64,000 nucleotides of DNA from Dyella acidiphila. GTDB taxonomy: Bacteria > Pseudomonadota > Gammaproteobacteria > Xanthomonadales > Rhodanobacteraceae. Below the pieces are notes generated by a model, which saw only the letters and a program-made list of their open reading frames with translations, was not told where the DNA came from and did no database searches. Shown in pieces: positions 39,225 to 44,760 of the stretch (position 1 is its first letter; every line of letters begins with the position of its first letter). The stretch is from positions 62,001-126,000 of the forward strand of contig NZ_JACZZA010000004.1 in NCBI RefSeq assembly GCF_014863405.1, read 5' to 3'. Made by a program: the position numbers and the translations under genes.

Positions 39225-39230
39225 GTGCGC

Positions 39231-39317
39231 GTAGGTTGGGTTGGCGCAGCGTAACCCAACAATGTCGTGTGGCTTCGATGGAGATTTGTTGGGTTACGCT
39301 GCGCTAACCCAACCTAC
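39231..39317. repeat. Nested inverted repeat, copy B
   Basis: A 30-nt left arm (39231-39260) and its inverted right arm (39288-39317) differ at a single base and enclose 27 bases of unrelated sequence. Each arm itself folds: TTGGGTT and TAACCCAA pair around the GCGCAGCG core. It sits between sapC and the RidA gene. Confidence 0.92.
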
Positions 39318-39332
39318 GGCGGTGGGCGGTGT

Positions 39333-39845
39333 TTAGGGGCGCACTGCGGTTACTTCGATTTCCACGCGGAAGCCTGGATTGGCCAGCGCCGCCACCTGCA
39401 CCGCCGAACGCGCCGGCAGCTTGGGCTGCTCCTTGGTGCCGAAGAACTTGGTGTAGCCGGCCATGAAGCCGGCGAAATCCATCTGGCCGCCGTGCTCCGC
39501 ATCGCCCACCAGAAACACATTCATCTTCACGATGTCGCCCATGTCCAGGTGCATGGCCTGCAACTGCTGCTGGATATGGGTAAGTGCGCCGATGGTCTGC
39601 GTCTCGGTGTTGCCATAGGCGGCCAGGCTGTCTTTCGGCGCCTTGGCATCCGCCACTGGCGGTACGTTGCCGCTGAGATAAATGGTGGCCTTGCCCGCCG
39701 GCACTTCCACTGCGGCGGAAATCGGAAAATGGCTGTTGGGTATCGGATAGCGCACCACGTCCTGGGCGCTGCTGGCAAAGGAGACCAGCAGCGTGGCGAG
39801 CGCTGCGGCGTGGATGGCCTTGTGCACGGCGGGTCTCCTGATCAT
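39333..39845 (-). CDS. Exported RidA family imine/enamine deaminase
   Basis: 170 residues. Unlike cytosolic RidA (about 130), it has a signal peptide (MIRRPAVHKAIHAAALATLL ending SFASSAQD). The family's catalytic Arg is present in LPARSAVQV (Arg146) and the Glu in RVEIEVTAV (Glu162/164), so hydrolysis of reactive imines to keto compound and ammonia is expected. The start overlaps the stop of the cytochrome gene as ATGA, making it the last gene of a three-gene operon with a flavin amine oxidase; its job is probably to clear the imine product in the periplasm. Confidence 0.87.
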   Translation of the reverse strand: MIRRPAVHKAIHAAALATLLVSFASSAQDVVRYPIPNSHFPISAAVEVPAGKATIYLSGNVPPVADAKAPKDSLAAYGNTETQTIGALTHIQQQLQAMHLDMGDIVKMNVFLVGDAEHGGQMDFAGFMAGYTKFFGTKEQPKLPARSAVQVAALANPGFRVEIEVTAVRP

Positions 39846-40300
39846 GGTTTGGATGGCTGATCTTGCGGGTGCATGGCAGCGACCTGCGCCGCCGTGATGC
39901 TGTCGGTGTAGTGATTGCCGAAATGCGAACGCACGTAGTTGATCACCTCGGCAATCTGCTCGTCGCTCAGCTTGGTGTCTTCGAAGAAACTGCCTTGCGT
40001 GGCAGGCTTCATTTCGAACGAGGGCATGTCGTGCCGCCCGAACAGAATCACCGCCGCCATATATTGCGCGGAGGCCAGCTTGGGATTGCCGGTGAGCGCG
40101 GGATACCTGCCGGCACCGGTGGCGCCTTTGGCATCGGGCATATGGCAGCCCTGGCAGATGTGCTGGAAGATGCCTTCGCCATGGGCGTTCTTGATGCTGC
40201 TGCGCGTATACAGCGCGTCGTCCATGGACTGCGCGTTCACCGTACCGCTGCACGCGAGCAACACGGTCATTGCGCACGCATAGGAGAGCGGACGGCTCAT
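39842..40300 (-). CDS. Periplasmic c-type cytochrome of the amine oxidase operon
   Basis: 152 residues. Start at 40300 gives the signal sequence MSRPLSYACAMTVLLACSGT with cleavage near VNAQS. One haem site CQGCH (Cys49, Cys52, His53) and a later FGRHDMPSFEMK that can supply the axial Met identify a class I monohaem cytochrome c. Overlaps by four bases with both neighbours (ATGA each time). Predicted to take electrons from the flavin enzyme encoded just upstream and pass them to the respiratory chain. Confidence 0.88.
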   Translation of the reverse strand: MSRPLSYACAMTVLLACSGTVNAQSMDDALYTRSSIKNAHGEGIFQHICQGCHMPDAKGATGAGRYPALTGNPKLASAQYMAAVILFGRHDMPSFEMKPATQGSFFEDTKLSDEQIAEVINYVRSHFGNHYTDSITAAQVAAMHPQDQPSKP

Positions 40301-41901
40301 GCCGCACCTCCGGCCAGGATGCGCTGATGCAGGCGCGTCACCAGGTCCAGCGCCGAGGTCACGGCGCCTTCCTGCCAGGCCGGCAAATAGGAAGCATGCT
40401 CGCCGGCCAGCGCAATGCGACCGTCGATCTGGCACAGGTTGTCGTAGTGCTTGGCGCGCAGTTCGTCCGACCACGATGCGAAGCAGCCCATGGTGAAGGG
40501 CGAGCGATGCCAGGCCACGGCCATGCCGTTCTCGAATTCCGCCCGGTATTGCGGATGGATCTGGCTACCGTATTCAACCGCTTTGCGAATCCGTTCGGCC
40601 GGCGTCATGGCGGTGAACTCGTAAGCATTGAGGCCCCACACATAGGCGCCCAGCAGCACGCCCTTGCGGCTGTGGAAATCGTTGCTGGGGTAGCTGATGG
40701 TGTTGATCGGCAGATCGGTGGCGGTGACGCCGCCATAGATGTCCTCATCTTCTTCCCAGAAGCGGCGCTTGAATTGCAGCCCCACTTTCACGGTTGCCGC
40801 ATACGGCACGGCGCCGATCGCCTCGGCCATCGGCGTGCTCACGTTGATCGGAATCTGGCTGAGGATGGACAGCGGAATCGTGCAGATGCACCAGTCGGCG
40901 CGGCTGGTCTGCGCTGCACCGGGATGCTGCGCATCCACATGCGTCACGCTGACGCCGTGCGCATCCTGCTGGATGCCGGTGACCTTGCGCTGGTAGCGAA
41001 TCAGTCCATGCAGTTCGCGGCCGAATGCTTCGCCGATCCGCCCCATGCCGCCGACCGGCTGGAACAGGGTGGTCTGGAACTCGAAGATCTCGCCCTCGGT
41101 AAGGTTGCGCCACAGCTTCGAATCGAGCACGTCGTGCAGTTGCAGCGGCTGCGAATCGGTAGGCCTGGCGGACAGGCCGCCGCCTGGCGGCTTGTCGAAG
41201 CCGCGCCGGTTGCTCACACCGGGCCCGGCAGCGTAGGCGTAGTTTTTATCGAGTGCGCCCCAGCCGCGCAGCGAATCCAGCAGCTGCGCCTGGTCATCTT
41301 TGCTGATCTGCGCATCGAGCTTGCCCTGTTGCGCCACTTTCGCCAGCAGCTCGGCGATATGGCCGCGGTAGTCGGCATTGATGCTGCGATAGCGCTGCGG
41401 CTTGCCGCCGAAGGCGTTGGCACTGTGCAGGTAGGCGTTGTGATTGACCTGCACGAAGGGCTCGAGCGGTACTTTGAGTTTCTTGCAGTAATCGAGCAGA
41501 CCGCGATGGTGATAGGGAATGCGCCACGGACCCGGATTGATATACAGGCCGCGGTCGAACTGGCAATGCTGGGTATAGCCGCCCAGTTCGGTGTAGGTGT
41601 CGCCGCCGCGCAGCGTCCAGTTGCGGCCGCCGGGACGGCCGTTGTATTCCAGCAATTGCACCTTGTAGCCGGCCTGGCGCAATTCATAGGCCGCCACCAT
41701 GCCGGCCAGTCCCGCTCCCAGTATCAACACCGAGGTGCCGCGTGGCGCCCCTTGCAACTGCGGCGTGCCGCGGTACGGCGATTCGGCGGCAAAGCCCAGG
41801 CTGCTCATCGCCTGGTACATCGCCGCACCGCCCGCACTCACGCCGATCATGCGCAGCAGATCGCGGCGCGTCATGGATGATCCCGAACTTTCCCCTTGCA
41901 T
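40297..41901 (-). CDS. Tat-exported flavin amine oxidase/dehydrogenase
   Basis: 534 residues. Signal: MTRRDLLRMIGVSAGGAAMY carries the twin arginine near the N-terminus; ATG 41901 has GAGGGG upstream, while ATG 41874 would start directly at the Tat motif. FAD binding is shown by VLILGAGLAGMVAAYEL, the amine-oxidase GG-R motif NGRPGGRNWTLRGGDTYTE and the C-terminal RIALAGEHASYLPAWQEGAV. It oxidises an unknown amine or amino acid to an imine. Cotranscribed with a cytochrome c and an exported RidA, it resembles NicA2 of Pseudomonas putida, which is a dehydrogenase using cytochrome c rather than oxygen. Confidence 0.88.
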   Translation of the reverse strand: MQGESSGSSMTRRDLLRMIGVSAGGAAMYQAMSSLGFAAESPYRGTPQLQGAPRGTSVLILGAGLAGMVAAYELRQAGYKVQLLEYNGRPGGRNWTLRGGDTYTELGGYTQHCQFDRGLYINPGPWRIPYHHRGLLDYCKKLKVPLEPFVQVNHNAYLHSANAFGGKPQRYRSINADYRGHIAELLAKVAQQGKLDAQISKDDQAQLLDSLRGWGALDKNYAYAAGPGVSNRRGFDKPPGGGLSARPTDSQPLQLHDVLDSKLWRNLTEGEIFEFQTTLFQPVGGMGRIGEAFGRELHGLIRYQRKVTGIQQDAHGVSVTHVDAQHPGAAQTSRADWCICTIPLSILSQIPINVSTPMAEAIGAVPYAATVKVGLQFKRRFWEEDEDIYGGVTATDLPINTISYPSNDFHSRKGVLLGAYVWGLNAYEFTAMTPAERIRKAVEYGSQIHPQYRAEFENGMAVAWHRSPFTMGCFASWSDELRAKHYDNLCQIDGRIALAGEHASYLPAWQEGAVTSALDLVTRLHQRILAGGAA

Positions 41902-42616: not shown

Positions 42617-44593
42617 TCAGTCGCCGATGACCGGCAGTGCGATATAGCTGGCCTCGTCCGCCGCGTGGTAAATGCGCTGCGTGGCCTTCTGATAATCGCC
42701 CGGCTTGGCCCAGAAGATATTCGGCACGAAAGTCTGCGGATTGCGGTCGTAGAGCGGGAACCAGCTGGACTGCACCTGCACCATCACGCGGTGGCCCGGC
42801 AGGAATACATGATTGGCGTTGGGCAGTTCGAAGCGGTACGCGAGCGGCTGGTTGGCGGCCAGCGGCTTGGGCGTGTCGAAGCCTTCGCGATAGCGGCCGC
42901 GGAAAATATCCATCGCCACGGCGAGCTGATAGCCACCCATTTCCGGCTGCTCGCTGACCTGGTCCGGATACACGTCGATCAGCTTCACCACCCAGTCGCT
43001 GTCGGTGCCGCTGGTGGAGGCCACCAGGTGCACCATCGGTGCGCCGGCAATGGTCAGCGGCTGGGTCAGCACGTCGGAGACATAGGTGACCACGTCGGTG
43101 CGGCCGGATGCTTCGCGCTGGTCGTCCACCAGCCACTGCGACCAGGTGAGGCCGTTGTCGTAGCCGATCGGCTGGCTCGGGCGTGCGCGGAACGATACCG
43201 GATGCGCCGGATCGGAAATGTATTCGTCGTAGCCTGCGCCCGTTGCCGGTGCGCTGAAGCCCAGCTTGTTATCAGGCTGCAGATAGAGCGCGCGGCTCTT
43301 TGTCTTGCAGCCGTCCTCGCAGGCCAGCGGCCAGTGGCTGAGCCGCTGCCATTGATTGGTGCCGGTCTGGTACGCGGTTACCGGGGCGATGTCGGCCTTG
43401 GGCGCGCCATCCTTCAGGTACTGCGCCAGATACGGCCGCAGGATGTGCTCGCGGAAATACTTGCCGGTGTCGCTGCCGAAACGGATCGCGCCGAGCGCGC
43501 TGGCATCCTCGATTTCCTGGCCGTGATGCCAGGGGCCCATCACCAGCTTCACCATGTTGCCGCCGGTGTCCTTGGGCTTGATCGCGCGATACACCGCGAG
43601 CGCGCCGTAGATGTCTTCCTGGTCCCACAGGCTGTGCACCAGCATGGTCGGCACTTTCAGCGGCTGCGCGGCGAGCACCTTGTCCACCGCCTGCTCGCTC
43701 CAGAACGAGTCGTAGGCCGGATGCGCCACCAGCTTGTTCCAGAAGCCGAGCTGTTCCATGCCGTACTGGCGACCCAGTTCGCCGGCCGAGCCGGCCTGCA
43801 TGAACAGGTCGTAGTCGTCGTGATAGCTGGTCCACCACTTGTAGAAATTGTCGCGGCTGGCGCTCTGCTCGTAGATGTAGGCCATGTTCTGCTGGCGGAA
43901 GGCGCCGTGATGGAACCAGTCGTCACCCATCCAGCCGTCCACCATCGGGTTCATCGGCACCGCCACTTTCAGCGCCGGATGCGGATTCACCAGCGACATC
44001 AGCGGCTCGAAGCCGTCATAGGAAATGCCGATGGTGCCGACCTTGCCGTTCGATTCGGGAACGTTCTTCACCAGCCAGTCGATGGTGTCGTAGGTATCGG
44101 TAGCGTCGTCCACCGGCGTGGGATTGAGCGGGCCATGCACCGGCCGGTTCATCACGTAATCGCCTTCCGAACCGTATTTGCCGCGGATGTCCTGGATGAC
44201 GCGGATGTAATGGTCTTCCACGATCACGTCGGTGGCGTTGTCGTAGCCTTCCAGCATCGGGCCGAGATGGCCGCTCAGCACGTGGTGGGTCAGTTCCTTC
44301 GCGTCGTACGGCGTGCGCGTCATCACGATGCCGGCATGCGTGGTGCCCTTGGGAATCAGGATCACCGTATTGAGCTTGACGCCGTCGCGCATCGGGATCA
44401 TCACGTCGCGCTCGACGTAGTCGTAGCTGCCGGTGACCGGCGTGAACTGGGCCGGCGTTTCGCTGGGGTAGTTGGGGTATTGCGAAGTGTCTGGCGCATC
44501 CATCGCCGTCACGGCACCGCTCAGGCTGAGCAGCAGGGCAAACATGGCAGGCGTGAGCCTGCGTAAAGCGATCGCGGCACGACTCGACTTCAT
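42617..44593 (-). CDS. CocE/NonD family exported hydrolase (alpha-amino acid ester hydrolase type)
   Basis: 658 residues. Start at 44593 is backed by GGGGAG and gives a signal peptide (LRRLTPAMFALLLSLSGAVT). The S15-type alpha/beta-hydrolase core holds RTPYDAKE, the nucleophile elbow GTIGISYDGFEPLM and a cap region (DGWMGDDWFHHGAFRQQNMA), followed by the jelly-roll C-terminal domain (LTIAGAPMVHLVASTSGTDS, FLPGHRVMVQVQSSWFPLYD). Likely cleaves amide or ester bonds of acylated amino acids, peptides or beta-lactam-like compounds in the periplasm; exact substrate unknown. Confidence 0.88.
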   Translation of the reverse strand: MKSSRAAIALRRLTPAMFALLLSLSGAVTAMDAPDTSQYPNYPSETPAQFTPVTGSYDYVERDVMIPMRDGVKLNTVILIPKGTTHAGIVMTRTPYDAKELTHHVLSGHLGPMLEGYDNATDVIVEDHYIRVIQDIRGKYGSEGDYVMNRPVHGPLNPTPVDDATDTYDTIDWLVKNVPESNGKVGTIGISYDGFEPLMSLVNPHPALKVAVPMNPMVDGWMGDDWFHHGAFRQQNMAYIYEQSASRDNFYKWWTSYHDDYDLFMQAGSAGELGRQYGMEQLGFWNKLVAHPAYDSFWSEQAVDKVLAAQPLKVPTMLVHSLWDQEDIYGALAVYRAIKPKDTGGNMVKLVMGPWHHGQEIEDASALGAIRFGSDTGKYFREHILRPYLAQYLKDGAPKADIAPVTAYQTGTNQWQRLSHWPLACEDGCKTKSRALYLQPDNKLGFSAPATGAGYDEYISDPAHPVSFRARPSQPIGYDNGLTWSQWLVDDQREASGRTDVVTYVSDVLTQPLTIAGAPMVHLVASTSGTDSDWVVKLIDVYPDQVSEQPEMGGYQLAVAMDIFRGRYREGFDTPKPLAANQPLAYRFELPNANHVFLPGHRVMVQVQSSWFPLYDRNPQTFVPNIFWAKPGDYQKATQRIYHAADEASYIALPVIGD

Positions 44594-44707
44594 GGTGACT
44601 CCCCTTTGGGTATGCCCGGCTAGCCTAGCGTTTAATTCGCGCGCGCGGGTAGGGTCGAACCATGCCTCAGCGACCTGTGTTGCGAGAGCGCTTGTGACGG
44701 CATGCAT

Positions 44708-44736
44708 AAAAAAAGCCCGGACCAGCCGGGCTTTTT
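44708..44736 (-). terminator. Rho-independent terminator after the acyl-CoA dehydrogenase gene
   Basis: AAAAAAAGCCCGG, loop ACCAG, CCGGGCTTTTT; on the minus strand a long T run follows the stem, 25 bp past the stop codon. Confidence 0.9.
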
Positions 44737-44760
44737 CTTCAGGCACAGAAAGAACGAGGA

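Follow-up and report, generated by a model that had tools for sequence, protein, structure and literature searches.

The 64,000-nucleotide stretch of the Dyella acidiphila genome analysed here (contig NZ_JACZZA010000004.1, positions 62,001 to 126,000; hereafter the window) hosts an operon of three genes, encoding a flavoenzyme, a cytochrome c and a Rid protein. The operon probably serves the oxidation of L-amino acids in the periplasm, by a cytochrome-linked dehydrogenase with an imine deaminase as accessory. Gene order, protein family, fold, active-site residues, leader motifs and the conservation of the flavoenzyme-cytochrome pair have been directly observed. The genes are located on the minus strand of the window, which is part of a 5.07 Mb genome, at the positions given in an initial annotation of the window (Table 1), and overlap by ATGA, as noted there, both at the flavoenzyme/cytochrome junction (GGCATGAGC) and at the cytochrome/Rid junction (ACCATGATC). 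The three-gene unit is more than a chance arrangement, since many genomes have highly identical genes in the same order.

Proteins encoded by the operon

The flavoenzyme begins with SMTRRDLLRMIGVSAGGAAMYQAM, an N terminus of the twin-arginine translocation (Tat) type. A signal of this kind had been predicted in the initial annotation; the motif is present, and R12 and R13 are invariant in 18 relatives, as well as in 30 more divergent ones. Tat signals and leaders were called throughout from motif and hydrophobicity in custom scripts, not by SignalP. The protein fits the Pfam model Amino_oxidase (E 1.4e-50). Among the matches listed, its nearest solved relative by sequence and by fold is the L-amino acid oxidase of Rhodococcus opacus (2jae, 2jb1), which it matches in both respects over the whole length, at 35% identity. 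The arginine and the tyrosine contacting the substrate carboxylate are kept. Their counterparts in the 2jae chain are position 83 for R127 and position 370 for Y420, and these presumably are the carboxylate-binding residues named R84 and Y371.

The initial annotation had assumed oxidation of a generic amine, taking NicA2 as a model, and had suggested comparing the active site with NicA2 and L-amino acid oxidases. The carboxylate-binding pair is conserved as in 2jae. L-amino acid oxidases come first, and NicA2 is not named, among the matches listed (best 60 of 104; 50; 50), and a NicA2-like substrate is disfavoured on these grounds and by the conserved pair. Given the nearest solved relative, the substrate class is best read as L-amino acids rather than a generic amine.

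The second protein fits Pfam Cytochrom_C (E 5.6e-10). The CxxCH motif already noted is CQGCH, and is the only one, corresponding to one haem; a MPSF motif is found at 92. Cys49, Cys52, His53 and Met92 are invariant across 16 relatives, the last within a conserved MPxF, and Met92 would be the axial haem ligand. Among solved structures, a domain of 7w2j, the cytochrome subunit of fructose dehydrogenase, ranks first (E 3e-13), and the best matches overall come from the cytochrome domains of fructose and alcohol dehydrogenases. Cytochrome subunits of these enzymes take electrons from the partner dehydrogenase.

The third protein fits Pfam Ribonuc_L-PSP (E 1.4e-18). The leader and the catalytic Arg and Glu attributed to it were all recovered: the hydrophobic leader ends with SSAQ, and R146 (PARSA) and E162 (VEIEV) occupy the positions used by deaminating Rid proteins. 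The Tyr position hosts Ile (I42, position read by eye). The nearest solved relatives, 9bka (PSPTO3006, E 2.9e-40) and 9bkc (PFL1385, E 2.5e-31), are classed as Rid3, and are active on iminoarginine and on imines formed by an L-amino acid oxidase (PMC5619798). In the Rid3 signature Arg and Glu are kept and Ile replaces Tyr (PMC4433059), and the Dyella protein features all three residues. According to the same source, RidA genes, and sometimes Rid3 genes, cluster with genes for FAD amine oxidases. The host genome encodes a second Rid protein (G000:C11:354499-354849, L002), which has a leader-like N terminus and PAAS in place of PARS, and hence lacks the catalytic Arg.

Conservation of the gene cluster

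Homologous loci were collected from several genome sets. The flavoenzyme was found in 42 of 197 relatives from the same family searched at E 1e-60, at 48 places. A cytochrome c gene adjoins it in all of the 30 loci fetched; a Rid gene lies downstream in 17, and is absent beside it in 13. A set of named genomes, partly overlapping the former, retains the best 80 of 562 relatives, and is thus skewed to close ones. Cytochrome c is encoded directly downstream of the flavoenzyme in 79 of these 80 loci, the remaining one (L136) ending at a contig edge. A Rid gene on the same strand within 1.5 kb was found in 54 loci and not in the other 26, among which L091 and L102 have one on the opposite strand. 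In L102, from Pseudoxanthomonas composti, the flavoenzyme-cytochrome pair is doubled in tandem. Seven Xanthomonas loci hold the three-gene cluster (L095, L103, L109, L111, L113, L117, L144).

More distant relatives are organized in various ways. An even sample of 398 genomes of the phylum gave matches in 27, at 31 places. In the 30 loci fetched the flavoenzyme is adjoined by a one-haem cytochrome (20 loci), a two-haem cytochrome (3 loci), or none (7 loci, five of which have an adjoining Rid gene). The two-haem cytochromes (L176, L177, L181), c4-like by layout, are encoded between the flavoenzyme and an exported Rid protein. A class draw gave matches in 6 of 369 genomes; cytochrome is found in none of the three new loci (L188-L190), Rid in two. 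Plasmid records with a match were 37, and 10 were opened; seven have a cytochrome and five a Rid gene, one being too short to judge. Deinococcota and Bacillota were sampled through plasmid records only. In a Deinococcus plasmid the cytochrome is encoded upstream of the flavoenzyme. In a plasmid of Metabacillus dongyingensis (L155) genes for flavoenzyme and Rid, tatA and tatC are found in a row, with no cytochrome; this enzyme apparently brings its own export machinery. As it scores 494 bits, score alone is no predictor of a cytochrome. Genes for cytochrome oxidase subunit I and its assembly are located directly upstream of the flavoenzyme-cytochrome pair in a Dinoroseobacter shibae plasmid (L153).

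A tree was built with 82 representatives and the R. opacus enzyme. L061 and L083, both with cytochrome, are outside the tree, and L136 was excluded, its contig ending about 295 bases past the gene. The cytochrome state (one-haem, two-haem, none) changes twice on the tree, which is the minimum, vs 15.3 times in shuffles, none of 200 being as low; the two-haem group has a support of 100. Rid linkage is clustered too, with 18 changes vs 26.2 in shuffles, again with none of 200 as low. The association with the cytochrome is thus stable and that with Rid labile, and the flavoenzyme-cytochrome pair is the core of the unit.

The search for the same gene order suggested in the initial annotation hence revealed a conserved linkage; the lack of linkage it had named as an objection did not occur. 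The idea of a self-contained three-step package survives in part. The three-gene unit appears to be exported and its linkage is conserved, but Rid is absent beside the flavoenzyme in the family and named loci counted above.

Rid dispensability and cell compartment

A Rid protein of this type is encoded somewhere in 14 of the 17 phylum-draw genomes having a cytochrome-linked enzyme, and was not found genome-wide at E 1e-10 in the other three. The genus of the window includes 15 genomes with the enzyme; Rid is linked to it in six, located elsewhere in five, and was not found in four. Three family genomes (G017, G042, G053) encode an exported Rid and have no match to the enzyme at E 1e-60. Because Rid is missing in relatives, the imine step does not require it. 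Rid is an accessory, and may have other substrates. In G053 the exported Rid (L020) stands by itself; a SapC-like gene is close to it, as is also the case in the window.

The fetched loci with both a one-haem cytochrome and a Rid numbered 87, some redundant. In all but one of them the N terminus of Rid is strongly hydrophobic (86 loci), and the remaining Rid, that of L150, has a lipobox. Lipoboxes were found in 5 of the 101 Rid proteins examined for this trait; those of L150, L162, L163, L168 and L171 are encoded beside the enzyme and are probably lipoproteins. In the genus of genome G476, 50 of 199 genomes encode the enzyme. Of the loci examined in this genus, 24 combine a charged Tat core (2-5 charges) with a Rid devoid of leader, and 8 loci from 7 genomes combine a clean Tat core (0 charges) with a leader on Rid, all without cytochrome. 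Judging from these N termini, the enzyme and its Rid seem to share the compartment, and the leaderless form may stem from a single event. The number of charges in the Tat core is a suggestive indicator of export, and is not exclusive: L155 and L176, exported-looking, score 2, and the wrong RR was picked in L066 and L188. Hydrophobicity values overlap, and the Rid of L212 was scored as leader-bearing since the stretch measured reached into the domain.

Proposed function and alternative explanations

In the amine oxidoreductases described in PMC12224317, a Tat signal and an adjacent cytochrome c gene mark dehydrogenases, as shown by kinetics on NicA2 relatives. Applied to the Dyella operon, this rule points to an L-amino acid dehydrogenase linked to cytochrome and assisted by an imine deaminase in the periplasm. 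The flavoenzyme would fold with FAD in the cytoplasm, and then be exported by the Tat route. It would take a hydride from the L-amino acid, leaving an imino acid and a reduced flavin. Electrons would pass to the cytochrome c encoded by the overlapping gene and to the respiratory chain, and not mainly to O2, so that the enzyme would act as a dehydrogenase. The exported Rid3 protein would accelerate, on site, the hydrolytic conversion of the imino acid into a keto acid and ammonia, a helpful though optional step. Substrate range, electron transfer, dehydrogenase behaviour and the action of Rid on this imine are all predicted traits. The physiological role is most likely the scavenging of nitrogen or the catabolism of amino acids; a role in auxin formation, known from Gluconacetobacter diazotrophicus, is possible, and is not supported in the Dyella genome.

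On a broader scale, the operon is rather likely to represent one more lineage of the amine oxidoreductase superfamily whose dehydrogenases use cytochrome c, in this case acting on L-amino acids and lying outside the assayed clades. The acceptor slot would host a one-haem or a two-haem cytochrome. The imine deaminase would follow the compartment of the enzyme, being exported with exported enzymes, and leaderless with the cytoplasmic, cytochrome-free form. Such a recurring periplasmic unit would deliver electrons from amino acids to respiration with no peroxide formed and the imine quenched on site.

Several observations weigh against the dehydrogenase. The closest solved relative is an oxidase, the key residues of the flavoenzyme are found in O2-using oxidases as well, and a Lys linked to O2 reactivity is retained. 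Cytochrome c is not adjacent in seven of the 30 phylum-draw relatives, the support for the one-haem group in the tree (76) is not strong, and many relatives have no Rid at the locus, some of them none in the whole genome. The G. diazotrophicus locus, discussed below, is not among the best 80 of the 562 named loci, and its enzyme (GDI2456) was compared by description only. All the catalytic steps of the Dyella enzyme are predictions. Zero promoter-like sites were detected, vs 1.0 expected by chance, and terminator-like sites were 3 vs 2.9, so that the scan is uninformative.

Some of these data would fit a periplasmic L-amino acid oxidase using O2 and making H2O2, the cytochrome having another role, as in peroxide handling. 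Tat-bearing relatives with no adjacent cytochrome (L155, L156, L178-L180, L182) point the same way, as does the fast reaction with O2 of most tested superfamily members having Tat only (PMC12224317). An oxidase is nonetheless unlikely: an adjacent cytochrome gene is the stronger predictor of dehydrogenase function in that same work, no neighbour in the lineage is more constant than cytochrome c (79 of 80 loci; 2 tree changes), and its best solved matches are electron-accepting subunits of dehydrogenases. It is also improbable that the enzyme is dedicated to converting tryptophan into indolepyruvate for auxin, as proposed in G. diazotrophicus. Gene order and class are the same there, and two independent lao insertions resulted in loss of indole-3-acetate, unused tryptophan and reduced levels of all three transcripts (PMC5053998); plant-associated genera, moreover, are the source of many loci. 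However, of 43 L-amino acids tested with the R. opacus enzyme, 39 were oxidised (cited in PMC5053998), and Deinococcus and marine bacteria are found among the relatives. No indolepyruvate decarboxylase above cut-off was detected in the Dyella genome with the model TIGR03393 (one match, 96.5 bits vs a cut-off of 946); G. diazotrophicus is without one too. A dehydrogenase whose substrate is an amine other than an amino acid, like the nicotine of NicA2, would share the common Tat and cytochrome arrangement (PMC12224317), and is very improbable, the carboxylate-binding residues being kept.

If the cytochrome-linked dehydrogenase is correct, many bacterial proteins annotated at present as 'L-amino acid oxidase' or as 'flavin monoamine oxidase' would be respiratory dehydrogenases making no peroxide. 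It would also be accounted for why auxin formation in G. diazotrophicus needs cytochrome c maturation, auxin being 5% of wild type in maturation mutants (cited in PMC5053998). Loci with one-haem, two-haem or no cytochrome, and with exported or leaderless Rid, provide a natural comparison for acceptor switching in flavoenzymes, which also bears on why a periplasmic imine needs an enzyme.

Other features of the locus

Table 1. Features of the Dyella acidiphila operon (positions in the window)
Feature	Position	Strand	Description
Flavoenzyme gene	40297-41901	minus	534 aa, Pfam Amino_oxidase, twin-arginine start
N-terminal Tat-type signal region of flavoenzyme	41788..41901	minus	residues 1-38, RR at 12-13, motif only
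One-haem cytochrome c, putative electron acceptor	39842-40300	minus	152 aa, hydrophobic leader, Pfam Cytochrom_C
Haem-binding motif CQGCH of cytochrome c	40142..40156	minus	residues 49-53
Exported Rid3-like protein, putative imine deaminase	39333-39845	minus	170 aa, Pfam Ribonuc_L-PSP
Signal-peptide-like leader of Rid protein	39765..39845	minus	residues ~1-27, hydrophobic window 2.19

A palindrome with 33-base arms, 97% complementary, follows the Rid gene directly on its downstream side, at 39230-39318. Allowing up to 3 mismatches, the genome has 217 copies of its 30-base core and the reversed control none, and the core defines a REP-like repeat family. A Peptidase_S15 protein with a leader-like stretch near the N terminus is encoded at 42617-44746, on the strand of the operon and two genes upstream of it. 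This protein might liberate amino acids or peptides outside the cytoplasm.

Comparison with known systems

A secreted RidA coupled to its imine source had been regarded in the initial annotation as unusual. The lao-cccA-ridA set is already published (PMC5053998), as is the clustering of Rid and amine oxidase genes (PMC4433059), and the Dyella operon is neither isolated nor new. The present analysis adds a comparative pattern, which makes the electron-transfer role of the Dyella cytochrome directly testable. In G. diazotrophicus PAL5 the cluster corresponds to GDI2456-2455-2454, and Caulobacter and Xanthomonas are reported to share the arrangement (PMC5053998). Judging from the published description, the same three kinds of genes are found there in the same order and on the same strand. 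The enzyme has 533 aa, with a Tat signal of 38 residues, and is 34% identical to the R. opacus oxidase, vs 534 aa and 35% in Dyella. The organism differs, and the available text of PMC5053998 does not mention a leader on RidA; it names the enzyme an oxidase, and assigns no definite role to cccA or ridA. One Acetobacteraceae fragment, from plasmid record H37, matched over 187 residues at 60.4%.

The R. opacus oxidase has fold and active-site residues in common with the Dyella enzyme, and differs in being solved and known as an O2-using oxidase. No paper on a periplasmic cytochrome-linked L-amino acid dehydrogenase was found in the open-licence literature, and the terms 'Gluconacetobacter', 'RidA', 'imine', 'LAAO' and 'amino acid oxidase' are absent from the main text of PMC12224317. 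The Rid3 proteins PSPTO_3006 and PFL_1385 (PMC5619798) have the catalytic Arg and Glu, and Ile for Tyr, as the Dyella Rid. The PSPTO_3006-like Rid encoded beside a related enzyme in the genus of G476 starts with MSDSIQRTS and has no leader, unlike the Dyella protein. In Chlamydomonas, periplasmic LAO1 works with LAO2/RidA (PMC10805672), and an extracellular L-amino acid oxidase is similarly partnered by a RidA protein; this system belongs to an alga and makes H2O2, and a cytochrome is not mentioned in the available part of that paper. NicA2, Pnao and the other cytochrome c-using dehydrogenases (PMC12224317) share with the Dyella operon a Tat flavoenzyme and an adjacent exported cytochrome c, whereas the Dyella enzyme belongs to the L-amino acid oxidase lineage.
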